This document shows, one piece after another, positions 1,413 to 62,206 of a stretch of DNA of 64,000 bases; position 1 is the stretch's first letter, and each line of letters starts with the position of its first letter. Made by a program: the position numbers and the translations under genes. Under the pieces are notes generated by a model. The model had not been told where the DNA came from. It made no database searches and worked only from the letters and a program-made list of their open reading frames with translations. Source of the DNA: Desulfovibrionaceae bacterium (lineage in GTDB: Bacteria; Desulfobacterota; Desulfovibrionia; Desulfovibrionales; Desulfovibrionaceae); assembly GCA_009773665.1 (NCBI GenBank), contig WSYE01000003.1:62001-126000 (forward strand), in the 5' to 3' direction.

Positions 1413-1739
1413 TCATTGGTTGTTCATCATCCTAAGCAGCTTGTCTTTCTGCTCTTTTATCTTCGCCGCATCGCTCTTGGCCTTGCCATCCTTCTTGCAT
1501 TCTTCTCCGGCCTCTATAATTTTTTCGTAATCCTTCTTCACTATGCGTCCAACCTCCATCAAATTCTTGCTGATCGCCAAAACACTCGGGCACGCTTCAG
1601 AGAGCTTGACGACTTCGGCATACTGATCAGCCGTTATTTCGTCGTAATTGCTGCCAGTGCAATTCGAAAACATAACCGTGACAACGACAAATAATGCAAC
1701 AATTCCAACCAGTACTTTCCAATTTAATTCATCACGCAC
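1413..1739 (-). CDS. Small membrane-anchored protein
   Basis: 108 residues starting with GTG, preceded by AAGGAG. Residues 8-26 form one hydrophobic segment ending in FSNC, which resembles a poor lipobox, so it may be a lipoprotein or an inner-membrane anchor. The rest is a charged, probably helical domain (residues 35-108). Family unknown. It sits in the same leftward set as the preceding membrane gene. Confidence 0.55.
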   Translation of the reverse strand: MRDELNWKVLVGIVALFVVVTVMFSNCTGSNYDEITADQYAEVVKLSEACPSVLAISKNLMEVGRIVKKDYEKIIEAGEECKKDGKAKSDAAKIKEQKDKLLRMMNNQ

Positions 1740-1750
1740 GGTACTTCTCC

Positions 1751-2269
1751 TTATCTTGCGTTTGGTGTTTCCGAACTTGCTATTTCAGGCGTGGAAACCA
1801 TTTTGCCAGCCTTACGCAGAACGCCTTGCCGCTCCTGCCCGTTCAGGAAGTTCACCCTCTCGGCCGCCGCATCAGGATCGGTGTGGTCGCTCTCCGGCAT
1901 CCAGGCTCCGTCCGGCAGGAAAAAGCCAACGGTCCAAGTCTCCTCATCGGTCTTCCCGTACACGTATCTTCCGGGGAGGGTGGGTCTTTCTTCCTCGTCG
2001 TCCACGCCACCATTCTGCATCTTTTTTTCAAAGTTGACCGTACGTTGAATCATAACGACAACAACGGTGATCAGCAGGCTGGCGAATGCCATTGTTACGA
2101 ATTCTGAGTTGTACAGCAGAAACCTTTTAGGGATGTGATGTCCCTCCGCACCCGCGAAGAGCACACCTATCCAGACCAATGCCAAGATGAAGGAATACAG
2201 GATGTTGACTCCTATGCGAATCAGAAACAGCACGACTACCACAACGAGAATGCAGTTGATGATAAGCAT
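1751..2269 (-). CDS. Hypothetical membrane protein, 172 aa
   Basis: Three hydrophobic segments (about residues 2-22, 24-42 and 58-76) are followed by an acidic soluble tail with DDEEER and a W-rich stretch (TWTVGFFLPDGAWMPES). The start ATG at 2267-2269 has a strong GGAGG site. I do not recognise the family. Membrane proteins of this kind are frequent beside mating and partition genes. Confidence 0.6.
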   Translation of the reverse strand: MLIINCILVVVVVLFLIRIGVNILYSFILALVWIGVLFAGAEGHHIPKRFLLYNSEFVTMAFASLLITVVVVMIQRTVNFEKKMQNGGVDDEEERPTLPGRYVYGKTDEETWTVGFFLPDGAWMPESDHTDPDAAAERVNFLNGQERQGVLRKAGKMVSTPEIASSETPNAR

Positions 2270-2291
2270 GGGAACCTCCTTTGCTTCCGCC

Positions 2292-2642
2292 CTAAAAGCC
2301 GTGCTTACGAAGATATTCGTCCAATGCTTCGCGAACGGCCCAGGCTTCTTTCATGCGCTGGTTGTAGCAATAGCTCCGCAGCCGGTCATAAAGCTCATCT
2401 GAGAAAACGACGGTCTTCCTCACTTCGCCTTTTTGCTCTTTCGTATCTGTGTCTTTGATCAAATTATCATCATCGCCTTTTTGCTTTTTCGCCTTGCCAG
2501 ACTTACGCAAATCAGGATTTGCGTCTTCACGACCTTGCGCCTTTTCACCATCGCGTATCTGTGAAGACTGGCCCCCCTCCTCTTCGGTCACGTCCGTCCG
2601 CTTGAACAGCTCCCCGCCCTTGATTCCTTTCCCGAGTACCAT
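2292..2642 (-). CDS. Ribbon-helix-helix partition partner (ParB/ParG-like)
   Basis: 116 residues. The first 70 are charged and probably disordered; the C-terminal 45 (RKTVVFSDELYDRLRSYCYN...AVREALDEYLRKHGF) fit a ribbon-helix-helix DNA-binding domain. The gene starts one base after the stop of the ParA gene upstream, the usual arrangement for a type Ib ParA plus small centromere-binding protein. Its likely job is to bind a parS site and the parA promoter. The longer open frame (to 2762) lies inside parA and is rejected. Confidence 0.7.
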   Translation of the reverse strand: MVLGKGIKGGELFKRTDVTEEEGGQSSQIRDGEKAQGREDANPDLRKSGKAKKQKGDDDNLIKDTDTKEQKGEVRKTVVFSDELYDRLRSYCYNQRMKEAWAVREALDEYLRKHGF

Positions 2643-2643
2643 G

Positions 2644-3387
2644 TCACGCCCTCCGTGCGATTTCGTTTGCAAGCCTGTCGTAGTCCTCAGCGCCAGCGCT
2701 TCCTGGCCGGTAAGCCTGGATGTCCTTGCCGTGGCTGGGTGCCTCGGCCAAGGCCACGGCATCGCGAATCTTCGTTTCGAAAAGGATGTCCGGGAAGGCT
2801 CGGCGCAACTCGTTGAACACGTCGCGGTTCAAAGTCTTGCGCTTGTCGTAGAACGTCACGGCTATGCCCAGGACACGCAGCATGGGGTTAAGGTCCCGCA
2901 CCATGGCCACAGTGTTGTGGAGCAGTTCCAGCCCCCTCAGGGCGTGAAATTCAGCCTGTACCGGGATAACGATCTCATCCGCCGCCACCAGGGCGTTGAC
3001 GGTGACGAGGCCCAGGTTCGGCGGACAGTCCAGGAGCACAAAATCATACGCCTCGATGTCGCTCAACGCCTTCTTCAGCATGTTCTCTCGCCCGATCCTG
3101 CCCGCAAAGGTAAGGTCGGCCTGCGCCAGGCTCATGGTAGCCGGAAGAAGGTCCAGCTCGCCCTTGCGGACGACCTCCCCCATGCTGGCCCGCCCGTCCA
3201 TGACGTCATAGACGCTCGCTTCCAGTTCATCCGGTTCGATGCCGCACGATGCGGTCAGGCTGCCCTGGGCGTCCAGGTCCACCAGCAGGACACGGCACCC
3301 TGCCCGTGAAAGGGCCGCCCCGACATTCTGAACGGTCGTCGTCTTCCCGACCCCGCCCTTTTGGTTCACAAAAGCTATTTTGCGCAT
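2644..3387 (-). CDS. parA: ParA-family partition ATPase
   Basis: 247 residues with a deviant Walker A at residues 8-16 (QKGGVGKTT), the signature DLDAQGSLT near residue 38, and Walker B-like FVLLDCPPNLG near 116-126. These mark a ParA/Soj ATPase that moves plasmid or ICE copies along the nucleoid. It is the first gene of a two-gene unit with the ribbon-helix-helix protein. No N-terminal HTH is present, so promoter control probably rests with the partner protein. Confidence 0.9.
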   Translation of the reverse strand: MRKIAFVNQKGGVGKTTTVQNVGAALSRAGCRVLLVDLDAQGSLTASCGIEPDELEASVYDVMDGRASMGEVVRKGELDLLPATMSLAQADLTFAGRIGRENMLKKALSDIEAYDFVLLDCPPNLGLVTVNALVAADEIVIPVQAEFHALRGLELLHNTVAMVRDLNPMLRVLGIAVTFYDKRKTLNRDVFNELRRAFPDILFETKIRDAVALAEAPSHGKDIQAYRPGSAGAEDYDRLANEIARRA

Positions 3388-3547
3388 ATTGGCACCTCAC
3401 TAAATGTGATGAGTCATATTTCCACAAAGGCATACTTTCGTCAAGTAATAAATTGTAAAATGAGAATTTGATAATTGTATGGTACGATTCATCACAAATC
3501 TGGCCGGGGGGGTTGACACGACGCGGAATTGTCTATACATTTTGACC
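3388..3547. promoter_or_regulatory. Divergent parA/brnT control region with inverted repeat
   Basis: This 160-bp gap separates leftward parA from rightward brnT. It holds widely spaced inverted arms TGTGATGAGTC (3405-3415) and GATTCATCACA (3486-3496), one mismatch, and a small palindrome ATGAGTCAT (3409-3417). AT-rich DNA lies between. These are plausible operator or parS half-sites for the ribbon-helix-helix partner, but binding is inferred. Confidence 0.4.
3513..3541 (+). promoter_or_regulatory. Sigma70-like promoter of brnTA
   Basis: A perfect -35 TTGACA (3513-3518), a 17-bp spacer and a -10-like TACATT (3536-3541). The brnT ATG starts at 3548, seven bases after the -10, and no Shine-Dalgarno sequence is visible, so the mRNA may be leaderless. 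Confidence 0.55.
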
Positions 3548-3829
3548 ATGCAATTTGAATGGGACAAAACAAAGGCTCAGGCTAACCTGGACAAGCACGG
3601 CTTGGATTTCGAGGATGCCAAGAAAGTTTTTTCCCGTCCTGTCGTGATAACGCCGGATGCGCGGCGCGACTATGGCGAGCTGAGATACAAAGCCTTGGGG
3701 GAGCTTGACGGAGTGATAGTCTACATCGCCTTCACGCCCCGAAGGGATGCAGTTCGCATCATTTCCATGCGCCCGGCCAATAGAAAGGAGCGTGAAGCGT
3801 ATGCCAAATCCCACCAAAAGCGACCTTAG
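3548..3829 (+). CDS. brnT: BrnT-family ribonuclease toxin
   Basis: 93 residues starting MQFEWDKTKAQANLDKHGL, the hallmark BrnT opening, with the later family motif DEVRxISMRPANRKERE seen as AVRIISMRPANRKERE. BrnT is a RelE-fold RNase toxin. The family would have the start at ATG 3548; an upstream frame to 3479 has no family similarity. The end overlaps brnA by 29 bp, typical of the brnTA operon. It probably stabilises the element. Confidence 0.88.
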   Translation: MQFEWDKTKAQANLDKHGLDFEDAKKVFSRPVVITPDARRDYGELRYKALGELDGVIVYIAFTPRRDAVRIISMRPANRKEREAYAKSHQKRP

Positions 3830-4094: not shown

Positions 4095-4469
4095 CCTAAG
4101 GCACCCCCTGGCTCTGCGAAAACCCTCTTCACGCCGCTTCGGCGTGTAGGCTCTTCGCGGAGCGTACCCAAGCCATACAGCGTCGGTCCATGGCCACGAG
4201 CTGCGCTAGAGTATGGCTTGCGTTAGTCCACCCCGCGCCCTCACCGGCCTGCCTTTAAAATGGTCCTCGTAGCCGAACATGCTGCACCTGGTCATACGCG
4301 GGCACGGGCTCCGGCCCGCTTCGGGCCGGTGGGGGCCTGTGTGCTTTTCGCTGGAGGTAGCCGCCCGAAAAGGGCAGCCCTGGACGGTCGCGCTGAGGTT
4401 TTCGCGAAAGCGTCCAGGGCCAGGCATTGCGCGTTTACGGCGTTCTTTCTTGGTGGGCTGGTTTGCGGT
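4095..4469. other. Non-coding gap holding dispersed repeat copy A
   Basis: No convincing gene. The stretch carries repeat D copy A plus a further GC-rich hairpin stretch (4350-4470). It is the largest gap on the left flank of the presumed leading region. No conserved nick sequence was recognised. Confidence 0.5.
4122..4350 (+). repeat. Dispersed repeat D, copy A
   Basis: Three blocks recur in the same order at 21606-21828 (opposite strand) and 37727-37957: a left block with CTCTTCACGCCGCTTCGGCG and GGAGCGTACCCA, a middle GGCCTGCCTTT, and a right block with GGCACGGGCTCCGGCCCG, CTTCGGGCCGGTGGGGGCC and a final TGTGCTTT. Left and right blocks each form GC hairpins. Block spacers differ between copies. 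It may be a small non-autonomous mobile or structural element. Confidence 0.7.
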
Positions 4470-4779: not shown

Positions 4780-5013
4780 TTAGTCTTCGGTGTCGGGGTT
4801 TTCGTCCTGTTCCTCCTCGAAATGCGTTTCGGACAGGCGCACCGCATCGGCAAAATCGAAGTCCTCGGCCTCGTGAGCGGCCAGGTGGCGGAGGTCCGAA
4901 AGAAGATCGGTCAAGTCGTCTTGCCCGACCTGGCCACCTTCCCCGAGGCATTGCGCCTTGTAGAATTCCAGGGCCTGCATTGCGCGTTCGCGGCGTTCTT
5001 CGTTCGTGGGCAT
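4780..5013 (-). CDS. Hypothetical acidic protein, 77 aa
   Basis: Starts MPTNEERRERAMQALEFYKA and ends in an acidic tail (EEEQDENPDTED). GGAG lies 8 nt before the ATG. It follows the 78-aa gene with a 12-bp gap on the same strand. The small, very acidic make-up recalls DNA-mimic or anti-defence proteins, but no family is recognised. Confidence 0.55.
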   Translation of the reverse strand: MPTNEERRERAMQALEFYKAQCLGEGGQVGQDDLTDLLSDLRHLAAHEAEDFDFADAVRLSETHFEEEQDENPDTED

Positions 5014-5025
5014 GGTGGGGACTCC

Positions 5026-5262
5026 TTATTGCTCGGACTTTGAAGGGTAGATTGTGGCGATGTTGTCCCGGTGAATCGAGCCGCATTTTCCGCCGTCCGT
5101 GTTCGTAGGGAATCCGTCGCGGTTGAACATCCGAAGGGCCGGGCGTTTCTCTTGCGCGAGCTGGTACGCGGCCACGTAGTGCAAACCGCCGTACACTGAA
5201 CGCACAAGGCAAAGCTCTTCGGGCTTGAGTCCATTGTAGTAGTTCGGGGCTTTGGTCTGCAT
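5026..5262 (-). CDS. Hypothetical protein directly behind repeat R1
   Basis: 78 residues starting MQTKAPNYYNGLKPEELCLV. The ATG at 5260-5262 and its ribosome site (CCGGAGAA) are almost the same as those of the methyltransferase gene behind R2, showing that the repeat reaches right up to the start codon. No domain recognised. It heads a three-gene leftward unit (78-, 77- and 73-aa proteins). Confidence 0.6.
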   Translation of the reverse strand: MQTKAPNYYNGLKPEELCLVRSVYGGLHYVAAYQLAQEKRPALRMFNRDGFPTNTDGGKCGSIHRDNIATIYPSKSEQ

Positions 5263-5698
5263 GGCTTTTCTCCGGGGTTTTGTGTCTTTGCTTCTTGCCT
5301 TCTCTCCCCCCCAACATCCTTCCGGCGGAGGGGGGGAGGGGCAGGGCCTTTCATCTTCAAAAGGCCTGACCCTCCCCCATCCCGCCGGAAGGCCGCGAAC
5401 TCTGGAAAATGCGTGCTGTTGCCCGTGGCCAGGTAGCAGGCCGAGTGACAGGGCCTCGGGCTTTGACGAGGACCTGGCGCGAAGGCGTGCATTGGCCACG
5501 GGCAAGCCTTCAGCACGCCACCGCCCAGCGGTTCTGTGCTCTTAGCCTTCCTGGGCTCCGGCTGTTTGGATTTGAGGAGCCGACAAGGCGCCGATCTCCG
5601 CCCCGGTTCATCCGGGGCAATCGCCGGGTCCAGGGCCGGGCACCGGCCCTGGTCGCGGGAGAGCGCGAGAGGGGGGGTGACTCCCCCCTCTCGCCCGA
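5263..5698 (-). repeat. Structured leader/promoter repeat R1
   Basis: First of three ~430-bp copies (others 7589-8010 and 9666-10090), always just upstream of a leftward gene. Stems seen: A, 5316-5392, outer arms CCTTCCGGCGG/CCGCCGGAAGG with a GC inner stem; B, 5411-5518, arms GCGTGCTG/CAGCACGC plus TTGCCCGTGGCC/GGCCACGGGCAA; C, 5601-5617, CCCCGG/CCGGGG; D, 5631-5651, CAGGGCCGG/CCGGCCCTG; E, 5667-5693, GAGAGGGGGG/CCCCCCTCTC. The sequence AGGTAGCAGG(C/G)CGAGTGACA in the B loop is shared by all copies. A single-strand promoter or structured leader is inferred. Confidence 0.8.
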
Positions 5699-5716
5699 TT
5701 TTGAAGTTCCCTTCCC

Positions 5717-5740
5717 CGTCCAGGCCTGAAGGCCTGGACG
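5717..5740 (-). terminator. Hairpin after the methyltransferase gene
   Basis: A perfect 10-bp stem CGTCCAGGCC with loop TGAA, 18 bp beyond the stop of the leftward methyltransferase gene. There is no U-run on the leftward strand, so it may be a weak or factor-aided terminator. Confidence 0.4.
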
Positions 5741-5758
5741 ATGGAAGAGGTAGAAGGA

Positions 5759-7588
5759 CTAGATCAGGCTTTGCATCTCAGCACGTTCCCGGACATGGGG
5801 TTTACTGATGGTGAGCAGGGCGACCCTGACGCCTGTTCCCGCTTCCTTGAAGGAGCCCTCCGGGAGGTTTTCCCAGGTAGTGGCCAGGGGCTTCAGCTCG
5901 TCATTCTGGCGCGGCCCGTTGGCGCACAGGGCCACCAGGACGCCCCCAGGGCGGAGCATGTGCAAGGCGTGCTTGATGTGCTTGATGTCCACGCCGTTCT
6001 CAAAGGGCGGATTCATCACGATCCGGTCAAAGGTGCCAAGGTCGCCGTTGCAGGCCAGGAAATCCGCCCGGTGGATGTGGAGCCCGGACAGGCCCAAGCG
6101 CGTCAGGCCCTCGGCGAGGTCCAGGTTGATTTCCACGGCTACCTTGTCGGGCTGGTCGCCGATGGCCCGGAGCAGGTTGCCCGTGCCTGCGCTGGGCTCA
6201 AGCACGCGGTGATCGGGGTGGATGTCGGCCAGGTCCACCATTTGCTCGGCGATCGCGTTCGGGGTGGGGAAGAGCTGGGGCACGGCCTTGACCTCCACGG
6301 GCTTCTTGGCAGCCTCCTTGAGAGCCTGAAAGGCTTTGTCGTCTTCGTTTTCTTCCTTGGACGGCGCGGGGACAATCGGGCGCGGTTGGGGTTTGGGGGC
6401 CTCAACCTCGATCGTGGCCGGGCGTTCGTGCACTTTGGCGTCGGTCAGGTAGACGCACACAAGCGCGCTCTTGACGATGGCGATCCTGACGCGGTGGGAA
6501 TTGTCCACCATTCGTGTGCCTTTATAGTCGCGCCAGATGGCCGCATATTCGGCTTGCGTCATCTCTACCTGTGCGAAGGGCTCAGACTGGCCGCGTCCGT
6601 CGAACCTCGTGATGGCGATGCCTTCGGGCGCGCGATAGTTGCAGATGGGGAGTTGCTTAGGGCGCGGCTTCTTCTCCAGCAGCGCGCTTGCGCCCTGTTC
6701 TTCCAACATGGCCTTTTCGTAGGCCAGCCGGTTGTCATAATGGGCAATCCATCGGTCGTGCCAGGGGATCATCCTGGAGTGTGCTTCCACTGCGATGTCG
6801 CGGGCCTGCTCGGGCGTGATTATGTTATCCTCTAAGGCGCTCCAAAGGCTTCGCGATCCTTCGTAGGTGTTTTCCGTGCGCGGGTACTCGGAGAGCGGGA
6901 AGCAGCGTGAGATATGGTCACGGTCGGTGATGTAAAGCGCCCGCTCGCGGAAGGTCAGGGGCTCGCCGTCCTTACGTTTGATAGCGGCTGCGTCGTTGGC
7001 CCACAGTTTCAGGAACATTTCCGCTTGCGCCTTGCTGCGCTCCTGCTTCCGCTTGTCTGCTTCAAGGGTCTTGATGCGGCGAGCGCGCACGCCGGGGAGT
7101 TCCTTGTATTTTGCATGGGCCAAGGCACCGGCTGCCCTGGTGGTCCAGTATTTTGACGTTTCCCAAAGGTTTACGGCCTTCCGCATGCCGTTTTCGATGC
7201 GCTCCGCGTCCTTTCTTGCGCGTTTCTCGCTGTGGTGCCCCACAAGGATCGGCTGGCCAAGCGGGATGCCGTCCGCGAGCGTGTCAACGGCTTTGCGGGC
7301 GCTGTGCGCATCCGCTGCCCGCTTTTCGGAGTAGCCCTCGAACCGCTCGGCGCGATCTTCGGCACGATCAACCAAGCTGGTGTCTTCGTCGCCAATCTCG
7401 CCGCACAGTTCAAGCGCGAGATCCTCACGCTCGGGCGTCCACATCGGGGCAACGAAAAGCTCTTGCTGCGGTGCCCACTTATACCCGGCGGCCTTCACGC
7501 GGGCGTATGTTCCGGCGTCCAGGCGGCTTGAGGCGTACAGCCGCAACTTGTTGTCTTCGGGCGAATATGTGGCGGTCATGGTCTGCAT
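5759..7588 (-). CDS. DUF3560 protein with adenine-methyltransferase domain
   Basis: 609 residues. The N-terminal part (about 10-165, with YARVKAAGYKWAPQQELFVAP and the later HHSEKRARKDAERI) fits DUF3560, a plasmid-associated family. The C-terminal part is a Rossmann methyltransferase with motif I EPSAGTGN (residues 464-471) and motif IV NPPF (526-529), the N6-adenine type. A charged linker (about 395-430) joins them. It lies directly behind R2. By position and type it is likely an early-expressed protein protecting incoming DNA from restriction; this is inference. I start at ATG 7586-7588, behind CCGGAGAAGAGCC. Confidence 0.8.
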   Translation of the reverse strand: MQTMTATYSPEDNKLRLYASSRLDAGTYARVKAAGYKWAPQQELFVAPMWTPEREDLALELCGEIGDEDTSLVDRAEDRAERFEGYSEKRAADAHSARKAVDTLADGIPLGQPILVGHHSEKRARKDAERIENGMRKAVNLWETSKYWTTRAAGALAHAKYKELPGVRARRIKTLEADKRKQERSKAQAEMFLKLWANDAAAIKRKDGEPLTFRERALYITDRDHISRCFPLSEYPRTENTYEGSRSLWSALEDNIITPEQARDIAVEAHSRMIPWHDRWIAHYDNRLAYEKAMLEEQGASALLEKKPRPKQLPICNYRAPEGIAITRFDGRGQSEPFAQVEMTQAEYAAIWRDYKGTRMVDNSHRVRIAIVKSALVCVYLTDAKVHERPATIEVEAPKPQPRPIVPAPSKEENEDDKAFQALKEAAKKPVEVKAVPQLFPTPNAIAEQMVDLADIHPDHRVLEPSAGTGNLLRAIGDQPDKVAVEINLDLAEGLTRLGLSGLHIHRADFLACNGDLGTFDRIVMNPPFENGVDIKHIKHALHMLRPGGVLVALCANGPRQNDELKPLATTWENLPEGSFKEAGTGVRVALLTISKPHVRERAEMQSLI

Positions 7589-8010
7589 GGCTCTTCTCCG
7601 GGGGGTTGTGTCTTTGCTTTTTGCCTTCTCTCCCCCCAACATCCTTCCGGCGGAGGGGGGGAGGGGCAGGGCCTTTCACTCTTCAAAGGCCTGCCCCTCC
7701 CCCATCCCGCCGGAAGGCCGCGAACTCTGGAAAATGCGTGCTGTTGCCCGTGGCCAGGTAGCAGGCCGAGTGACAGGCCGAAGGCTTTGCGTAGGCCTGG
7801 CGCGAAGGCGTGCATTGGTCACGGGCAAGCCTTCAGCACGCCACCGCCCAGCGGTTCTTTGCTCTTAGACTCCTGGGCTCTGGCTGTTCGGATTTGAGGA
7901 GGCGAGAACTCGCCGATCTCCGCCCCGGTCGTCCGGGGCAATCGCCGGGTCCAGGGCCGGGCACCGGCCCTGGTCGCGGGAGAGCGCGAGAGGGGGGCAC
8001 CCCCCTCTCG
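7589..8010 (-). repeat. Structured leader/promoter repeat R2
   Basis: Second copy, closest to R1. It keeps the long hairpin with arms CCTTCCGGCGG/CCGCCGGAAGG, the GCGTGCTG/CAGCACGC stem, the CCCCGG/CCGGGG stem with a shorter loop, CAGGGCCGG/CCGGCCCTG and a shortened GAGAGGGGGG hairpin. Two hairpins with U-runs upstream (8034-8101) should stop readthrough, so the methyltransferase gene must be expressed from within R2. Confidence 0.8.
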
Positions 8011-8037
8011 CCGGCTGCGGATTGAAGCAGTAAAAAT

Positions 8038-8071
8038 GAAGCGCGCCCGGCGTTTCACGCCAGGCGCGCTC
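8038..8071 (-). terminator. Rho-independent terminator
   Basis: On the leftward strand, GAGCGCGCC-TGGCGT pairs with ACGCC-GGGCGCGCTTC and is followed by ATTTTTA. It ends the ssb/sprT/small membrane gene unit before R2. Confidence 0.7.
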
Positions 8072-8083
8072 AAAAGGGGGAAA

Positions 8084-8101
8084 CCGGGCCTTGCGGCCCG
8101 G
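8084..8101 (-). terminator. Second terminator hairpin
   Basis: CCGGGCC and GGCCCGG with a small loop, followed on the leftward strand by TTTCCCCCTTTT. It directly follows the stop of the 41-aa membrane gene, in tandem with the terminator at 8038-8071. Confidence 0.6.
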
Positions 8102-8105
8102 GGTA

Positions 8106-8231
8106 TCAACAGTGGTTGTGCGAGTGACGGCGGTGACGGCCCTTCCGTGGCGGAAGCCGGAAGGTCAGGATAAGCGCGACTGTGGCCATGAGCGCCAACA
8201 CGACGACAAAGAGGGTTTCGGTGTATGTCAT
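8106..8231 (-). CDS. Small single-span membrane protein, 41 aa
   Basis: Starts MTYTETLFVVVLALM; one membrane span (residues 5-25) followed by a basic, histidine-rich tail (RKGRHRRHSHNHC). The ATG at 8229-8231 has GGAGGG at 7 nt. Last gene of the ssb unit. No family recognised. Confidence 0.55.
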   Translation of the reverse strand: MTYTETLFVVVLALMATVALILTFRLPPRKGRHRRHSHNHC

Positions 8232-8422
8232 TTGCACACCCTCCAGGTTATAACTTGCGAAATTGCTAGGCATCCAATGCCTATCCAAATTCCCAACGGC
8301 CGATCTTGAAAGAAGCCTACCAACAAAGAGCCAGCCGCGACCTTTTCAAAGGCATCCGCGAAACGCTTCAATACTGCCGTCACAATGCCTCCTTACTCAT
8401 CCCTGGCAGGGGTTGTCCAGCC
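8232..8422. other. Gap without a gene
   Basis: 191 bp between the SprT-like gene and the 41-aa membrane gene. I see no convincing coding frame or strong structure. Confidence 0.4.
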
Positions 8423-9106
8423 TTAAGCAGAACCTTCCCCGACAAAAGCCCCCTCGCACTTTGCGCACATCATGGCCAGACCGGGCTTGCCCCAGGCGTT
8501 TTGCCCGCATGGGCATGTGTATTTGAGCTTGCTTTGCCTGGGCTTTCTGGGCTTGGGCTCACCACCTTCGCCCTCCTCGCCATCGGCCTGGACCGGTGCC
8601 GTGGGCAAGCAATCCACGCTCTGAAAGTTGAAGCGGAAACCGGCGGCAAGTAGCTCCTGGCAGACCTGTTCAAACAGTCCGCCGGGCATCACATAGTCGG
8701 ACATGCTCGGGCCGACTTTACGGCCCCCAGGCTGGCCAGTGTCGGAAGGTATGAGTCCGATTGCCTCCATCTTCCCCGCCCATTCCTTGTTGTGGTAGCC
8801 GCCCCGGGTGGGCTTGCCGAAGCACCACTGCCAGTGATGGGCCATTTCGTGCCCGAGGGTCTGCAATATCTCAACGTCCGTCTGCTTCCGAAAGACTGCG
8901 GGGTTCAAAGCCAACTCCGGGACACTGCCGGAACCGTCCCGGCGCTCGAACCGTCCCGGCGAGTAGTACCCGCACGAGCCCGCCTTGCGCTGGTAGGTGA
9001 TGAGCAAATCGGGCAGCTCACCATCGAACAGGCGCTCATTGAAAAAGGCGTAAGCACGCTCGATTCCGGTGTATTCCCTGCCAGTAAGTTCCGGTTTAGC
9101 GCCCAT
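8423..9106 (-). CDS. SprT-like zinc metallopeptidase domain protein
   Basis: 227 residues. The SprT-like domain carries HEMAHHW (HExxH at 86-90) after an N-terminal ERAYAFFNERLFDGELPD, and the C-terminus has two cysteine pairs (CPCG and CAKC), as in SprT/Spartan proteins. Such proteins cleave protein-DNA crosslinks; plasmid copies are common next to ssb. It follows ssb on the same strand, so it fits an early DNA-handling role after transfer. I infer that from position. Confidence 0.82.
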   Translation of the reverse strand: MGAKPELTGREYTGIERAYAFFNERLFDGELPDLLITYQRKAGSCGYYSPGRFERRDGSGSVPELALNPAVFRKQTDVEILQTLGHEMAHHWQWCFGKPTRGGYHNKEWAGKMEAIGLIPSDTGQPGGRKVGPSMSDYVMPGGLFEQVCQELLAAGFRFNFQSVDCLPTAPVQADGEEGEGGEPKPRKPRQSKLKYTCPCGQNAWGKPGLAMMCAKCEGAFVGEGSA

Positions 9107-9198
9107 GATCTTCCTCTTGATTAGTACGAAACACTTTTAGGTCCCATCATCCCGTATGGGCGGCGCATCCAGCCGGACACGCCGCCCTTGCCTATTCC

Positions 9199-9648
9199 CT
9201 AGAACGGCACGTCATCCATGCCCGAGGCCTCGGACGGGAAAGCCGGACCGTAGTCATCTTCGCCCCCTGACTTGTTCTTGCTGTCCTCGCCCTCGGACTT
9301 CTTCTTCTCCAGGAACTTGATGCAGTGGGAGCCGTTGGCCAGAACGATTTCAGTCATGTAGTGCTTTTGGCCGTCCTTCTCCCAGGAACGAGTCTTCAAA
9401 GAGCCTTCGACGTAGACCAGGCGGCCCTTGTAAAGATGCTCGGCGTAGAACTTTGCCGATTCGCCGAACACCTTGACGCGGTGCCACTCCACCGCCTGGA
9501 CTTTCTCCCCGGCCTGGTTCTTGTAGGTTTCGCTGGTGGCCACGTTCATTTCGGCCACGGCACGCCCGGAGGGCAGGTATGTGAGCTTGGGGTCCTGGCC
9601 CAATCTGCCGATGAGGGACACCTTGTTCATGCTGTTCAGGCTGCTCAT
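9199..9648 (-). CDS. ssb: Single-stranded DNA-binding protein
   Basis: 149 residues: an OB-fold starting MNKVSLIGRLGQDPKLTYLPSG (after 6 extra residues), followed by WHRVKVFGESAKF and a disordered linker. It ends in the acidic tip DDVPF used to recruit partner proteins. The ATG at 9646-9648 has AAGGAG at 7 nt. It is directly behind R3. Plasmid leading regions typically carry ssb to coat the incoming strand and limit SOS induction. Confidence 0.95.
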   Translation of the reverse strand: MSSLNSMNKVSLIGRLGQDPKLTYLPSGRAVAEMNVATSETYKNQAGEKVQAVEWHRVKVFGESAKFYAEHLYKGRLVYVEGSLKTRSWEKDGQKHYMTEIVLANGSHCIKFLEKKKSEGEDSKNKSGGEDDYGPAFPSEASGMDDVPF

Positions 9649-9665
9649 GTCTTTACTCCTTATGC

Positions 9666-10090
9666 CTTTAGGGTTTTCGTCTTTTGCTTTCTGCCTTACC
9701 CCCACCGTTCCTTCGGCGGAGGGGGGGAGGGGCAGGGCCTTTCATCTTCAAAAGGCCTGCCCCTCCCCCATCCCGCCGAAGGGCCGCGAAATCTGGAAAA
9801 TGCGGGCTGTTGGCCGAGGGCAGGTAGCAGGGCGAGTGACAAGCCTGGAGGCTTTGCGGAGGGCTTGGCGCGAAGCCGTGCATTGCCCTTGGCCAAGCCT
9901 TCAGCCCGCCACCGCCTAGCGGTTCATTGTTCATCGGTTCCTGCCTTCGGCTGTATGTCTTTGAGGCGTGCGAGGAGCCGCCGGTCTTCGCCCCGGACCC
10001 CCCAAGCGTCCGGGGCAATCGCCGGGTCCAGGGCCAGGCTCTGGCCATGGTCGTGGGAGAGCGCGAGAGGGGGGCGACACCCCCTCTCGC
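9666..10090 (-). repeat. Structured leader/promoter repeat R3
   Basis: Third and most diverged copy, upstream of ssb. Its stems persist through paired changes: GCGGGCTG/CAGCCCGC where R1 has GCGTGCTG/CAGCACGC; arms CCTTCGGCGG/CCGCCGAAGG, one pair shorter than R1; CAGGGCCAG/CTGGCC in place of CAGGGCCGG/CCGGCC; and CCCCGGAC/GTCCGGGG, two pairs longer. It reaches to within 11 bp of the coupling-protein stop. Confidence 0.8.
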
Positions 10091-10100
10091 TTTCCCCGTC

Positions 10101-11900
10101 CTAGTTGGAAGCCATCTGCACTTTGTCTTCATAGACGCCGTGCCTGACAAAGGCCTGCCCGGTCTCCAGCCGCTTGATGTCGTCCGGGTGCACGACGAAC
10201 TCCCGCACCAGGCGGTTGCTCATCATGCCGGTGAACTCGTCCTCGTCTGACTGTGCTGTGGATTTGAGCGCCTCCTTTGTGCCGAACAAGCTTGCAAGCT
10301 CTTCGGCATCCTTGTGGTCGTTCTGCTTCTGCACCATGAGCGTGTTGCAGTTCTGGATGATCTGCCGGCGAAGAGCCTCGCCGCTCTCCAGCTTGTCGAT
10401 GTCCGCCAGGCTCTGGAAGGCGAGGAGCGCTTCAAATCCCGCGCTGCGGGATTTGTTGATGATGTCCACGACCTGGTGCGAAGCGAAGACGTTGAATTCG
10501 TCGAAGAACAAGGCCACCGGCTCGGGGGTTTCCTGACTGTTTCGGGAGTGGACGGAAATGGCGGTTTTCAGGTCGTTGACGATGAGCCGCCCGAGCGCCC
10601 GGCTCTGTTCAGGATACCTCAGGCTGTCGAGGCTGAAGAGAACCGCCTCCTTGCGCTCGATGGAGTCGGCCAGGTTCAACCCGCCATCCTTGAAGATCGG
10701 CCGAAGATCTCCTTCGGCCAGCGCTGAAATGCGTCCCTGAAGGCCGGATACGGCCTTGGGATCAACATTCTCCATCAGCCGCCAGCAGCGGAGCGCTTCA
10801 GGCTCCACCACCTGCTCAGGCATTTTCCTGTCCACGTCCTCAGGACCGAAGGGTTCGACCTTCGCGTCCTCCTTCTGCTTCTTTGCCTTCTTGGGATCGT
10901 CTTTTATGCCCAGAAGCCGCTTCACGTTCCGGCGATCGCAGTATTCCACCACGTTGGAAAGGGAGGGGCGTTTTCCGCGCAATGTGAACGCGATGAGCAG
11001 TTGTTGCAGGAAGCTCCTGGCTCCGAGCTTGTAGTGTTCTTCGCTCCAGTCGAACAGGCCGATGATCTTATCCGTAAGTTCATCCGGGGTGCCTGACGAA
11101 AAGGCATTGTACGCGGTATCTCCGTCCATGGTGATGACGGAACAGGGAATTCCATAGTCAGCCATTGTGGATTTGAACTTTCGGATATTGCCACGGTCGC
11201 CCTTGCCATCCACGAAGACGATGGCCTTTCGATTCAGCGCGGCGTTAATGATGAAGTTGTAGAGGCTCACGGTCTTGCCCGCACCTGTAGTCCCTATGAG
11301 ACAGAGATGCTGCGTGAGCCACTCGTGGGGAATGGCCACGGGCAATGCCGTCTTGAAGCTCAACCCGATGGGCACGGTGTTTTCCGTCTGCCTTGTGAAG
11401 CGCTTCCAGTGACGCGGCTTCAGCCGCTTCTCGCCCCTGTGTTGCGCGAGAACACCCTTGATGGAATCATGCTGCTTGAGTGACAGACCGGCCATCCCAC
11501 AGGCGCAAGCGGTTGTCAGGGCAAGCAGGATGGACGGAACGATGAAAACCACCAGCCAGTCATACATGGGTTGATGGGTGAAGAAGTAAGGAATGCTTCG
11601 CGCGTCGGTATTTGCAATGGCCTCCATGCTGAAATATTCGTAGTGCCAGATTGCCAAAGTCTGAATAAACGCATTGCCTCGGTACAGAATGAACGAGCTT
11701 GAAAATAACACCACAAAGGCCACTGCCAGACTTTTTTTTAGCGTCCGCTTGGTGTCCGGGTCTTTCATGCGAAGCATGACCAGGCAGTACGCGACCGCGC
11801 CGAAGAATAATGGGATGGGAGACAACCAGAAGTTGAAGATGAAGTATGCGATGGGCAGGACGCCCAGCAGGGTCGTTTTCGCGTCGTCTTTTCTGATCAT
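10101..11900 (-). CDS. VirD4/TraD-type coupling protein (T4CP)
   Basis: 599 residues. Several N-terminal membrane segments (about 10-42, 56-74, 113-138) precede a P-loop domain with Walker A GTTGAGKT (203-210) and Walker B ALFFDEFNVF (about 472-481), ending in the family's FVRHGVYEDKVQ. It links the relaxosome to the type IV channel and powers DNA export. It differs from RP4 TraG-like proteins in its four or so N-terminal spans. The start follows GAGGAG at 7 nt. Confidence 0.88.
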   Translation of the reverse strand: MIRKDDAKTTLLGVLPIAYFIFNFWLSPIPLFFGAVAYCLVMLRMKDPDTKRTLKKSLAVAFVVLFSSSFILYRGNAFIQTLAIWHYEYFSMEAIANTDARSIPYFFTHQPMYDWLVVFIVPSILLALTTACACGMAGLSLKQHDSIKGVLAQHRGEKRLKPRHWKRFTRQTENTVPIGLSFKTALPVAIPHEWLTQHLCLIGTTGAGKTVSLYNFIINAALNRKAIVFVDGKGDRGNIRKFKSTMADYGIPCSVITMDGDTAYNAFSSGTPDELTDKIIGLFDWSEEHYKLGARSFLQQLLIAFTLRGKRPSLSNVVEYCDRRNVKRLLGIKDDPKKAKKQKEDAKVEPFGPEDVDRKMPEQVVEPEALRCWRLMENVDPKAVSGLQGRISALAEGDLRPIFKDGGLNLADSIERKEAVLFSLDSLRYPEQSRALGRLIVNDLKTAISVHSRNSQETPEPVALFFDEFNVFASHQVVDIINKSRSAGFEALLAFQSLADIDKLESGEALRRQIIQNCNTLMVQKQNDHKDAEELASLFGTKEALKSTAQSDEDEFTGMMSNRLVREFVVHPDDIKRLETGQAFVRHGVYEDKVQMASN

Positions 11901-11910
11901 GCAACACTCC

Positions 11911-12492
11911 TCATAGCGGCATCATTTTCGCTTCAATGTAATCGCGAACAACCTTGTCGCTCGCCAGCATCAACACGCGGTCCCTGATTTCCTCCGACCC
12001 GCAATAATAAACGACCTTGAAGTATTCACCGTTGCGCAATGCCGCCACATACTTCCAAATGTTCTCTTCCTGCCGCTTCAGGCTTTTTTGCGACAGTTCG
12101 ACCTCGATAGCGGCGCTCTTCCCTTGGAATGTGATCACGAAGTCCGGTATCTTCTCGGTGAGGCCCCTCCTTCCTTTTTCTTCGATGATCAGGCTCCGCA
12201 GCTTCGCGCCGCCGATGTATTCGCAATCGAGCTTCCCGAGGATGTGCTTGCAAAGCTCCTTGCATTTCCTGTCGTGGTCGAAATCCGAAATGTTGAACTT
12301 CATTTTGCCCAGATGATAGAGGTTCACGCCGAGCCGGGATTGCGTCATTTTCAGCTTGTTGCTTGAAACGAGCCGCTTAAGTCGTTCGCTCGCAGTTGAC
12401 TTCGCCACTTCCAAGAAGAGCGTCACATCATCCAGGGTGCAGTATCCCCATTGATGCGCGAGTTCGATGAGTTCCTGTTCTTTCCGTGTCAC
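11911..12492 (-). CDS. Winged-helix protein with nuclease-like C-terminus
   Basis: 193 residues, GTG start. Residues 1-70 form a winged helix (EQELIELAHQWGYCTLDDVTLFL...STASERLKRLV). The C-terminal half has IPDFVITFQGKSAAIEVELSQKS, a D...E-x-E pattern like restriction-endonuclease-fold domains in replication-relaxation type proteins. It stands 10 bp upstream of the coupling protein. It could be a relaxosome accessory factor or a diverged mobilisation protein; I am not sure. Confidence 0.5.
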   Translation of the reverse strand: MTRKEQELIELAHQWGYCTLDDVTLFLEVAKSTASERLKRLVSSNKLKMTQSRLGVNLYHLGKMKFNISDFDHDRKCKELCKHILGKLDCEYIGGAKLRSLIIEEKGRRGLTEKIPDFVITFQGKSAAIEVELSQKSLKRQEENIWKYVAALRNGEYFKVVYYCGSEEIRDRVLMLASDKVVRDYIEAKMMPL

Positions 12493-12610: not shown

Positions 12611-12735
12611 CTGCGGATTTTCGCATTTATGCCTTTCCGTCTTCATGCCTTTGTGCCTTTCTGTATTTTCGTCTTCCCGCCTTTCTGCCTTTTCGTCTTC
12701 CTGCCTTTCTGTCTTTGTGCCTTTCTGCCTTTCGA
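12611..12735 (+). repeat. Phased pyrimidine-rich tandem repeat
   Basis: About five imperfect units of roughly 24 bp built on CTTTCTGnCTTTTCGTCTTC. On the opposite strand it reads as a charged repeat (ERQKGTK, ERQEDEK, ERREDEN, ERHKGMK). With no ribosome site this may be iteron-like DNA, not a gene. Confidence 0.5.
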
Positions 12736-12774
12736 TGTGCCGCATCATCCAGCGCGGCACATCCTTCCTTCGGT

Positions 12775-12841
12775 GGGTAATCAGCTGATGGGGTAATCGG
12801 CACGAGTCTTCGAGTGCCATTACCCCATCAGCTGATTACCC
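12775..12841. repeat. Long inverted repeat H1
   Basis: Arms GGGTAATCAGCTGATGGGGT (12775-12794, continuing AATC) and ACCCCATCAGCTGATTACCC (12822-12841) pair perfectly over at least 23 bp, with a less perfect inner part around GGCACGAGTCTTCGAGTGCC. No U-run follows on either strand, so it is not a simple terminator. Confidence 0.75.
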
Positions 12842-12960
12842 CTCTTATTCTTAATTCTTTTTCTTTCTTTTCATTATCTTACTAACTCTACTGACCTACT
12901 CTTAATAACTCTTCTTCCTTACTTCTTACTCTTCACTGTCTTTCACTGTCTTTCTTCTTC

Positions 12961-13030
12961 CCCGCCGCCCCGTTCCAGACCACCCTCTCTCAACTTGTTG
13001 GGAGGGGGTGGTCTGGAACGGGGCGGCGGG
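12961..13030. repeat. Long inverted repeat H2
   Basis: Arms of 30 bp (12961-12990 and 13001-13030) with only two mismatches around loop CAACTTGTTG. The outer part CCCGCCGCCCCGTTCCAGAC pairs without error. It sits directly beside the pyrimidine tract. Confidence 0.75.
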
Positions 13031-13067
13031 CTCTAATATATGATTTCATTCACTATTTTGCCTTTAA

Positions 13068-13090
13068 AACCCGAATCCCGGATTCGGGTT
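13068..13090 (-). terminator. Likely terminator of the tra/pil unit
   Basis: On the leftward strand AACCCGAATCC faces GGATTCGGGTT and is followed by TTTAAAGG. It lies about 430 bp past the pilT stop. Confidence 0.5.
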
Positions 13091-13524
13091 TGTGTTCGGG
13101 TTTTCAGCCCCTCCGCCGCGTCTGTTAGGTGGCTTTGCGAGGCCGTTTTCACCTGCATAGTGTCCACTACGCTCCAAATGAGGTTCATTGCGTTCCACTT
13201 GGGGGCAATACCGTTCTGGTTCATGTAAATTCGCTCCAGTTCTGTCCGAATCGCGGAAGCTTGTTCCAATGTGGTTCCAGTACGTGCCGGAACAGGGCAA
13301 TTCCTTTCCAATTCGTTCCGGTTCTGGCCATTTCGACCATGGGCCTGTGAAAGCGGAGTGGTCGGCTCGAACCACCTGGTCAACCTGGCTTGATCTGCCT
13401 GACGTTCCCTGTGTGGCCTGTGCACCGGCTCCGGGCCGCCGGAATGGCCCCCCTCGCTCCGCTCGGACTCTCCGGCCCCAGCGGGCGCAAAGCCGCCCGC
13501 CAGGGCTCGGAGAGAAAGCCCCAC

Positions 13525-21478: not shown

Positions 21479-21884
21479 TGGAAGCCTCCTCAGGGAATCT
21501 GATCTCACCGCTCAACAGCACGCTCGGGTCCGAACGCATGGCGTCAGCAATGGCCTTCCGGTACGCTTCTTCTCTGCGCTGCTGCTCAGGCGCCTCCGGG
21601 AGAAAGGCACACAGGCCCCCACCGGCCCGAAGCGGGCCGGAGCCCGTGCCCTTCGCCCGGGCAGTGTTGCCAGCTCGGCTGCCTGGACTGTTCAAAGGCA
21701 GGCCTGGGAGGGCGCGAGGTGGACAGGCTTGCCCTGGGGAATAGGGACAGCTTGTTGAAGTTGGCGTTCCCTGTCCGGGCTGGGTACGCTCCGCAAAGAG
21801 CCTGCACGCTTCGCGTGAAGAGGGCTTCTTCTCGGGCGCGTCGCCCTTGCCTGGAAGCATCACGTTGTCTTTATCTGAGGGCAT
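21465..21884 (-). CDS. Mosaic ORF: repeat D plus a PilQ-like fragment
   Basis: 139 residues. It starts well (AGGGAAG before ATG 21882-21884, overlapping the pilO stop) and ends inside pilP, which suggests it is translated. Residues about 27-97 are encoded by repeat D copy B. The last 40 (EAYRKAIADAMRSDPSVLLSGEIRF) mirror PilQ's Walker B segment (AYKDAIAGAMRSDPDVLMIGEIR). No Walker A or other ATPase part is present. It is probably a chimeric remnant. Confidence 0.5.
   Translation of the reverse strand: MPSDKDNVMLPGKGDAPEKKPSSREACRLFAERTQPGQGTPTSTSCPYSPGQACPPRALPGLPLNSPGSRAGNTARAKGTGSGPLRAGGGLCAFLPEAPEQQRREEAYRKAIADAMRSDPSVLLSGEIRFPEEASNAAR
21606..21828 (-). repeat. Dispersed repeat D, copy B
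   Basis: Inverted relative to copies A and C. Shows GGCACGGGCTCCGGCCCG with CTTCGGGCCGGTGGGGGCC (leftward strand), AGGCCTGCCTTTGAAC in the middle, and CCTCTTCACGCGAAGCGTGC with GGAGCGTACCCAG. It lies inside the 139-aa frame between pilO and pilP. Confidence 0.7.
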
Positions 21885-37702: not shown

Positions 37703-37966
37703 GACTACGCCCTTGCCCCTCGCCCCTCTTCACGCCGCTTCGGCGTGCAGGCTCTTCGGCGGAGCCGTACCCAGCACAAACAGGGAACGCTCGCCTCTCG
37801 ATCCGCGACAGGCTATGAAGGGAGTCCAGAAACCCTACCTTTTCCCAGGCCTGCCTTTGAACGGACCTGGGGTCGAGCTGGTTGAACCTGGCCACCCGCA
37901 GGCACGGGCTCCGGCCCGCTTCGGGCCGGTGGGGGCCGGTGGGGGCCTCTGTGCCTTTCCCGCCTG
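37703..37966. other. Gap upstream of traK, candidate oriT
   Basis: No gene. Repeat D copy C fills most of the gap. By synteny with RP4, oriT should lie here. I could not find an IncP-like nick consensus (ATCCTGC) in it. Confidence 0.35.
37727..37957 (+). repeat. Dispersed repeat D, copy C
   Basis: Same order of blocks as copy A: CCTCTTCACGCCGCTTCGGC with GAGCCGTACCCAG, then AGGCCTGCCTTTGAACG, then GGCACGGGCTCCGGCCCG and CTTCGGGCCGGTGGGGGCC. The last block has a GGCCGGTGGG duplication not seen in the other copies. Confidence 0.7.
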
Positions 37967-39785: not shown

Positions 39786-39851
39786 CGAGCGGCTGGCTCG
39801 TCAGGACCGGGACACCACGCCCGGCCGACCGCCCCGAAGGGCGGTTTCGCC
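39786..39851 (+). repeat. 66-bp direct repeat, left copy
   Basis: Matches 40829-40894 at all but about six positions; core GTCAGGACCGGGACACCACG then CGAAGGGCGGTTTCGCC. The two copies flank the lipoprotein and exported-protein genes. Confidence 0.7.
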
Positions 39852-39905
39852 GAAGAAGTTTTACTGAACGGAAGAAGCATGCCAGCTGAAACCACGGGAG
39901 GCCTC

Positions 39906-40828: not shown

Positions 40829-40894
40829 CGAGCGGTTGGTTCGTCAGGACCGGGACACCACGCCCGACCGACCGACCCGAAGGGCGGTTTCGCC
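40829..40894 (+). repeat. 66-bp direct repeat, right copy
   Basis: Copy of 39786-39851. Lies upstream of the leftward exported-protein gene; the left copy lies upstream of the rightward lipoprotein gene. Confidence 0.7.
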
Positions 40895-40975
40895 TTGGCC
40901 CTCTCCCGCACCCCGGGAAAGGGGCTCGTGTTAACCCGGCGACCACCCCAGCCGGGAAAATCCCATTTAACCGGC

Positions 40976-61621: not shown

Positions 61622-62206
61622 TTACGCTCCGGGCTCAACCCGAAGAATCTCTTCATCCGTCACGACCACGTGCACGGGCCGATCCCAGGGGTCCACGGGC
61701 AGCGCCTCAACCACCTGGAAGCCGTGCGCCAGCCCGATCAGGACAGTATCCGCGAACTCCGGCCCGGCCAGCAGGCGGTCGTAGTAGCCCTGCCCGAAGC
61801 CCAGCCTGCCGCCGCGCCGGTCAAAGGCCACGGCGGGGATGAGGGCCGCGCCGGGCGAAAAATCATCCAACGCCGGACACAACTCCGGATGCGGCTCCGG
61901 GATGCCGTACGCGCCAGGAGCCAGCTGCGACAGGCAGGTGAGACAGGCCACATCCAGAAGTCCGGCTTGACCGGGCCGGCAACGCGGGGCCAACACCCGC
62001 ACGCCGCGCCGAAACAGCGCGTCCAGCAGGTCCGTGGTCTCGACCTCGCCGCCGAAGGCCAGATAAACAAGCACCTCGCGGGCCTGCTGCCAGGCATCAA
62101 GGGTTTCCACCTGGGCGGCTGTTCGCAAACTGGCCTCGCGCACGTCTGCGGGCGCGAGGGCGGAGCGCCGGGCCAGCATGGCCTTGCGCAAGAACGACTT
62201 GTCCAT
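61622..62206 (-). CDS. 5-formyltetrahydrofolate cyclo-ligase
   Basis: 194 residues: LRKAMLARRSALA, VLVYLAFGGEVET, LIPAVAFDRRGGRLGFGQGYYDRLLA (glycine-rich active region). It makes 5,10-methenyl-THF from folinic acid with ATP. The start may instead be ATG 62233. Confidence 0.92.
   Translation of the reverse strand: MDKSFLRKAMLARRSALAPADVREASLRTAAQVETLDAWQQAREVLVYLAFGGEVETTDLLDALFRRGVRVLAPRCRPGQAGLLDVACLTCLSQLAPGAYGIPEPHPELCPALDDFSPGAALIPAVAFDRRGGRLGFGQGYYDRLLAGPEFADTVLIGLAHGFQVVEALPVDPWDRPVHVVVTDEEILRVEPGA

Follow-up and report, generated by a model that had tools for sequence, protein, structure and literature searches.

Repeated, folded non-coding elements before ssb and DUF3560-methyltransferase genes of a Desulfovibrionaceae conjugative element: candidate single-stranded-DNA promoters

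The window analysed here, a stretch of 64,000 nucleotides of contig WSYE01000003.1 from a Desulfovibrionaceae bacterium (positions 62,001 to 126,000; assembly GCA_009773665.1), holds three direct copies, R1, R2 and R3, of one non-coding element of about 380 nt. Each copy stands before a leftward gene. Behind R1 (5263–5698) lies a 78-aa open reading frame (ORF; P0001, 5026–5262, − strand) of unknown function, with no PHROGs or PADLOC match. Behind R2 (7589–8015) lies the gene of a DUF3560-methyltransferase (5759–7588, − strand, starting at ATG 7588 or 7579; PF12083, 4e-41), and behind R3 (9649–10090) that of a single-stranded-DNA-binding protein (SSB; 9199–9648, − strand; PF00436, 4e-33) with 50% identity to the F SSB over 102 aa. 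Downstream of ssb a SprT-like protein is encoded (8423–9106, − strand), recognised by Pfam and BLAST, whose homologue in genome G355 has an element copy of its own. An earlier note had described three repeats of about 430 bp before separate leftward units, and this was confirmed: the repeats are non-coding and 81–92% alike (pairwise identities 92, 82 and 81%), with the ATG 54–63 nt from the nearest large hairpin. A search of the genome with 5200–5800 returned three places only (E values 0, 3e-180 and 9e-107), plus the complementary arms of the same hairpins. The copies are distinguished by indels of 1–9 bases, which speaks against coding sequence.

The + strand, opposite to the reading direction of the genes, is the strand thought to fold. 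The five large stems described in the earlier note, and a small one besides, appear both when copies are folded singly and when all three are folded together; in the joint fold 12 of 157 predicted pairs show changes on both sides. In gene sense, from far to near, the order is hairpin 5 (HP5), HP4, HP3, a small hairpin, HP2 with its conserved tip, HP1 and an unpaired leader that is GGGG-rich and carries AAGGCARAAAGC-like sequence. R1 comprises the leader (5263–5317), HP1 (5318–5392), HP2 (5411–5518), the small hairpin (5521–5533), HP4 (5624–5658) and HP5 (5665–5694); R2 the leader (7589–7642), HP1 (7643–7717), HP2 (about 7736–7841), HP4 (7945–7979) and HP5 (7986–8011); and R3 the leader (9649–9709), HP1 (9710–9782), HP2 (about 9802–9908) and HP5 (about 10060–10086). 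The start of HP1 is 55 nt from the leftward ATG in R1, 54 nt (ATG 7588) or 63 nt (ATG 7579) in R2 and 61 nt in R3. Rfam gave no match over R1–R3 at gathering score, and its 69 sub-threshold matches, all microRNA hairpins, were taken as chance.

Relatives of the element are few. A covariance model of the HP2 region (model R1), built from R1–R3 and the copy G6A, matched four of 288 family genomes (G000, G003, G006 and G355), the same four among 348 genomes of the order and 348 of the class, and one of 247 in the phylum, which was the genome itself; these large searches ran with stricter filters, by which weak matches may be lost. Nine distinct copies resulted: R1–R3, G6A and G6B of G006, G355a–c of G355 (another genus; the genome carries 8% listed contamination), and S, a partial match at about 251–640 of contig C21 (L074, 3632 bases) of G003. 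A DNA search with R2 in 198 relatives found matches in four genomes (G000, G003, G006 and G021). The match in G021, another genus of the family, covers 51 bases resembling the HP4–HP5 stretch at 84% (L044 8581–8628, contig C2), and model R1 found none in the 20 kb around it. In G006 (L042 10530–11480) two divergent copies face each other about 300 bp apart, with an integrase-like ORF, judged by eye, 2.4 kb rightward. Similarity searches with R2 gave one 40-base match in plasmids, taken as chance, and none in phages. Eight viral-contig matches to a 16-base core were judged chance on inspection, and scans of viral contigs with two longer patterns found none.

The genes behind these copies recur. 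G355b precedes a DUF3560-methyltransferase 58% identical to that of the window, and G355a precedes a SprT-like protein (73% identity; Pfam 7e-12) followed by ParA (70%). G355c precedes a short frame beginning MTLNDVKLIGRL, which by eye resembles an SSB start, although the window SSB had no match on that contig at 1e-3. G6A and S stand before unnamed ORFs of 55 and 38 aa, and no gene was found behind G6B. The expectation that relatives always precede ssb, methylase or anti-defence genes held for the four of nine copies whose gene Pfam or BLAST could name (R2, R3, G355a and G355b), all SSB, SprT-like or DUF3560-methyltransferase; four others (R1, G355c, G6A and S) stand before small or cut ORFs. 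No copy was found beside an unrelated named gene, with a gene nameable for four of the nine. HP1 and the ATG are 49–61 nt apart in six of the eight copies with an ORF (R1, R2, R3, G355b, G355c and G6A), 108 nt in G355a and 33 nt in S.

The fold of the element is real and under selection. We aligned seven copies, all but G6B and S, with structure-blind MAFFT (A4) and tested 62 pairs of HP1, HP2 and HP4, drawn from an RNAalifold prediction of 92 on that alignment in which G-U pairs were permitted on the + strand; the 30 dropped were HP3, the small hairpin and doubtful pairs. HP5 was not among these predictions, and its one-sided changes cannot choose the strand. Paired cells made up 95.4% of 432, both sides had changed in 14 pairs (35 cells), and the covariation value was 0.288. 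Slid controls reached 37–54% paired (maximum 54.0%) and at most 6 pairs, 11 cells and a covariation of 0.119. Further pair types numbered 29, a count equalled by 7 of 500 shuffles. As the structure was derived from the same sequences, the 95.4% paired figure is favoured, the other covariation figures less so.

Which strand folds was assessed by comparing each copy with 60 dinucleotide shuffles. The + strand, the template of the genes, has the lower z-score in seven of nine copies, by a margin below 0.5 in R1, G355b and G355c. In the same comparison the template strand was favoured in six of six stretches (335–440 nt on the gene side) of Frpo of plasmid F and ssi of ColIb-P9, known single-stranded-DNA promoters, and not in two beta-proteobacterial and two Pelobacter repeats described below. 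A strand-symmetric helix count over the nine copies gave, on the + strand, G.T 16 versus A.C 4 in helices with at least nine Watson-Crick pairs and 23:9 with at least seven. At the stricter and looser settings the six Frpo/ssi stretches gave 5:4 and 11:6 and the beta-proteobacterial and Pelobacter repeats 0:8 and 9:15, while random window segments gave 252:284 at the looser one. The 16:4 count includes helices outside the consensus fold (R1, R3 and G6B); without those, and with shared changes merged, it is about 10:1 by hand. A symmetric count over the whole fold was 182:104, uncorrected for composition. Counted on aligned pairs, G.T:A.C was 9:2 in R1–R3, 3:2 in the beta-proteobacterial repeats and 0:0 in Pelobacter. 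There is thus moderate support for the template strand of the genes as the folded strand, resting mainly on the shuffle z-scores; it is supported, not proven.

No sigma-70 match was listed on the − strand of 4900–10200. On the − strand of G355 (L070, 5300–8400) there were two, one at 8372–8345, upstream of the terminator-like hairpin that precedes G355b, and the other inside the methyltransferase gene. The best linear coding-strand scores, given as they stand and without shuffles, were 1.4–6.8 in the nine copies, 3.0–5.7 in six Frpo/ssi stretches, 12.8–13.3 in four beta-proteobacterial repeats, and 7.8 and 9.6 in Pelobacter. The two strong terminators claimed before R2 were borne out in part. 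The consensus scan lists one terminator-like hairpin directly upstream, at 8071–8039 on the − strand; the second, at about 8098–8081, is unlisted because its T-run is short. A similar terminator-like hairpin lies directly upstream of G355b, and with such hairpins right upstream of both copies a transcription start for the methyltransferase gene inside the element is likely. No convincing −35/−10 was seen in the fold.

The closest parallels in layout are leading-region elements of enterobacterial plasmids. Like R1–R3, Frpo1 and Frpo2 of F are repeated stretches (about 600 nt) directly before ssb and another leading gene, their template strand folds better and a strong linear sigma-70 site is absent. 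Boxes at −35 and −10 are reported in the Frpo fold (PMC9849209), whereas none was found in R1–R3; and F, unlike the R1–R3 element, has a known entry order. The ssi copies of ColIb-P9 precede ssb, ardA and two other genes, their template strand likewise folds better and a strong linear sigma-70 site is missing there too, but they have no model or BLAST match to R1–R3. The IncF plasmid pDM0133 has a Frpo copy, 94% alike to Frpo2, that runs up to the start of ssb, the same gene type as behind R3; another copy (92%) stops 231 nt short of a small ORF, which in turn precedes a DUF3560 gene, the type behind R2. Of the genes said to fit the F and ColIb-P9 class, those behind R2 and R3, both of a type that aids the establishment of incoming DNA in a new cell, support the interpretation. 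The integrative and conjugative element ICEBs1 reportedly has a folded single strand of its own, the single-strand origin sso (PMC4595007). Frpo-like candidates have already been reported in an insect-metagenome island of unstated host (Samuel et al. 2024, PMC11541004). In the open-access literature, subscription journals not being covered, we recognised no description of such repeats.

Repeats before genes of these types are also found on other plasmids. The beta-proteobacterial MOBF plasmids pAOVO01 (Acidovorax) and pI (Denitratisoma) each have two copies of a 99%-identical repeat (about 680–750 bp) before ssb and a DUF3560-methyltransferase gene. Unlike R1–R3, these carry a strong conventional promoter within a palindrome (TTGACG-16/17-TAGAAT or TACAAT), and the two tested fold little beyond shuffles (z −0.3 to −2.3, as compared with −7.2 to −10.3 for R1–R3). 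Pelobacter pPRO1 has a repeat of about 230 bp (76%; L053 about 10004–10231 and 10995–11226); a nuclease gene follows one copy at a distance of about 60 nt, and a small ORF adjacent to a DUF3560 gene follows the other at about 525 nt. BLAST of the beta-proteobacterial and Pelobacter stretches against R1–R3 gave short pieces only, at E 0.1 or weaker. Matches to the DUF3560-methyltransferase number at least 5000 plasmid records; these searches used 5759–7582, two codons short. In genome contigs the protein search yielded 17 loci, and model R1, run at six of these, had no match. That the DUF3560 protein might be M.EcoGIX (PMC7736820) was considered and dropped; the 227-aa methylases that F and ColIb-P9 encode gave no match to the DUF3560 protein.

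R1–R3 reside on a conjugative element of about 53 kb, treated here as an integrative and conjugative element, which spans about 50.7–103.7 kb of the contig (C24, 130,015 bases, of a genome rated 66% complete), or about −11270 to 41650 in window coordinates. It carries type IV secretion genes, a PilV shufflon, PilS and ParA, with an integrase left of the window, and judging from ORFs and flanks a chemotaxis-receptor gene seems to be broken by the insertion, at its conserved signalling motif as far as the eye can tell. A near-identical element (99.5–99.7%) is present in another species of the genus, genome G003. The same element has a second repeat family of about 225 bp, about 73% alike (4120–4349, 21602–21827 inverted, and 37724–37941). 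Near its right end a pair of type II hammerhead ribozymes (39787–39852 and 40830–40895, both − strand) is spaced by about 1 kb; they are 93% alike over 70 nt when compared via the G003 copy.

A candidate relaxase adjoins the type IV secretion coupling protein (10101–11900, − strand; profile match). This 193-aa protein (11911–12492, − strand) resembles the MOBC type (65 aa aligned to NF041423 at E 8e-8, with 31.9 bits where the cut-off is 200), had no Pfam match at 0.01, and among 285 family genomes was found as a MobC-like query in its own genome and G003 only. Its EVELSQKSLKR, picked out by eye as a possible PD-(D/E)XK motif, is similar to FEVERTVKSR in what we take to be the mobC frame of CloDF13. 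No PF03432 match occurs in the genome, and TrwC, NikB, MobF and MobA/L queries had no significant match in the element. Upstream of the candidate lies a probable origin of transfer (oriT; 12618–13091), with 24-bp tandem repeats (12618–12733) and inverted repeats (12775–12841, 12961–13030 and 13067–13091); tandem and large inverted repeats are also the layout of the MOBC oriT of pAD1. In CloDF13, GGGTGGTCGGG, the nic site, is on the strand that fits a lagging relaxase, and a shorter GGGTGGTC is also found on the opposite strand nearby. In the window GGGTGGTCTGG occurs at 13006 on the + strand and is mirrored in the opposite arm at 12975, so the nicked strand cannot be read from the sequence.

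The best single explanation for the conserved fold, the position before start codons, the repetition, the downstream genes and the lack of a coding-strand sigma-70 match is, in our view, that R1–R3 are single-stranded-DNA promoters, to which we assign a probability of about 0.45. The + strand would have to be single-stranded, the simplest case being that it is the strand transferred into a new host; each copy would then fold into its five stems. We infer that polymerase would be recruited to the fold and would transcribe leftward through the purine-rich leader into the gene behind: SSB with the SprT-like protein downstream, the DUF3560-methyltransferase, or the small protein. Second-strand synthesis would remove the fold and silence the genes; silencing in double-stranded DNA is proposed in view of the lack of a visible ordinary promoter and of the terminator-like hairpin before R2. 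The R elements would be a candidate new variant of this kind of promoter, not members of the Frpo family. Layout, spacing, genes and the moderate template-strand bias support in part the interpretation that the earlier note had offered; convincing boxes and a sequence relation to Frpo were not found.

Several observations weigh against this explanation. On the folded strand, −35/−10 boxes scored above shuffles in none of the nine copies (shuffles reach the score in 21.5–99%), so the boxes predicted in the paired part are not shown, and G355a owes its linear score of 6.3 to a TAGAAT box within the longer leader of that copy. The six Frpo/ssi controls were likewise not clearly above shuffles (7.5–63%), so the missing boxes are weak evidence. 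Model R1 had no match in the F and ColIb-P9 stretches (L056, L057) at E≤1, and BLAST of R1–R3 against the F, ColIb-P9 and pDM0133 stretches gave nothing longer than 60 bases at 1e-4. In the strand comparison G6B is a tie and S is reversed. The aligned-pair bias is gone with G6A included (11:10) and, with G6B, in the five-copy HP1–HP2 set (9:10), and in four known Frpo/ssi stretches the count is 6:9. We put the loss of bias down to misalignment of divergent copies and prefer the alignment-free helix count, but both are to be weighed: the + strand has more T than A, so that G.T is overcounted, the copies are not independent, and wobble counts are weak markers.

Transfer polarity is a further difficulty. 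Relaxases are typically encoded in the lagging region (PMC11541004). If that holds here, + is the transferred strand, as the single-stranded-DNA promoter requires, but R1–R3 come near the end of the roughly 53 kb; were the genes to enter first, their coding strand would be the one transferred and the promoter model would fail. With the probable oriT right of the genes, R1–R3 would not be both early-entering and on the right strand, and the leading-region location assumed by the earlier note is doubtful. Copy S shares its contig with a MobA/MobL relaxase (about 1701–3631) and an RSF1010-like oriT; with the nic position given in PMC4814116, the folded strand of S would be the one that stays behind, the wrong polarity of this partial copy relative to the oriT on its contig. 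Samuel et al. (PMC11541004), moreover, saw no enrichment of anti-defence genes where MOBC elements have their leading regions.

Of four rivals three are live: a priming site, an mRNA leader and an unusual double-stranded regulator. In the first, the folds would be single-strand initiation sites that prime complementary-strand synthesis, by RNA polymerase or primase, with expression a by-product or separate. Repetition along the element, the moderate one-strand fold bias and an unpaired pyrimidine-rich stretch beside HP1 are consistent with this, and Frpo is described as both promoter and priming site, its transcripts also acting as primers (PMC7736820). A pure priming site, however, need not sit at start codons, and HP1 lies 33–108 nt before the ATG in eight of nine copies (49–61 nt in six); we hold priming to be an unlikely account. 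The similar start-codon spacing would also suit a structured 5′ untranslated RNA, made from a promoter inside the element and controlling translation, and the coding strand too folds far beyond shuffles (z −6.8 to −7.7 in R1–R3 and G355a–c). The strand bias points to the template strand, however, and the coding strand of the window stretch has no sigma-70 match; we think such a leader rather improbable.

A double-stranded regulatory region, in which the stems would be cruciforms or binding sites of an operator, or of a promoter used by some sigma factor or activator not recognised here, is suggested by the plasmids of Acidovorax and Denitratisoma, whose conventional promoters imply that repeats before ssb and DUF3560 genes need not be single-stranded-DNA promoters. 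No such box is seen in R1–R3, which fold strongly where the tested beta-proteobacterial repeats fold little, and we give this view the same slight credence as the RNA leader. That the + strand folds best in seven of nine copies would also fit a non-coding RNA transcribed rightward from it; as rightward promoter scores stayed within those of shuffles, HP5 is not followed by a T-run visible to the eye, and copies are located at start codons of opposite-strand genes, this is very improbable.

Should single-stranded-DNA promotion nevertheless be correct, such promoters may have arisen more than once. We suggest, as a doubtful extension, a second sequence-unrelated family without sigma-70 boxes, whose conserved HP2 tip (AGTGaCAaG ... 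CtTGGCGCG) would be recognised either by a variant polymerase of the host or by a factor that the element encodes, and which would drive establishment genes despite their late entry. Different conjugative elements would then have come independently to the use of folded single strands for controlling such genes, and surveys based on Frpo similarity or −35/−10 boxes would miss such elements. At least three repeat families without detected kinship (R, Frpo and the beta-proteobacterial repeats) precede units with ssb and DUF3560-methyltransferase, which raises the question of why these genes attract such elements. The R elements offer a concrete test of how far single-stranded-DNA transcription reaches beyond F- and ColIb-like plasmids.

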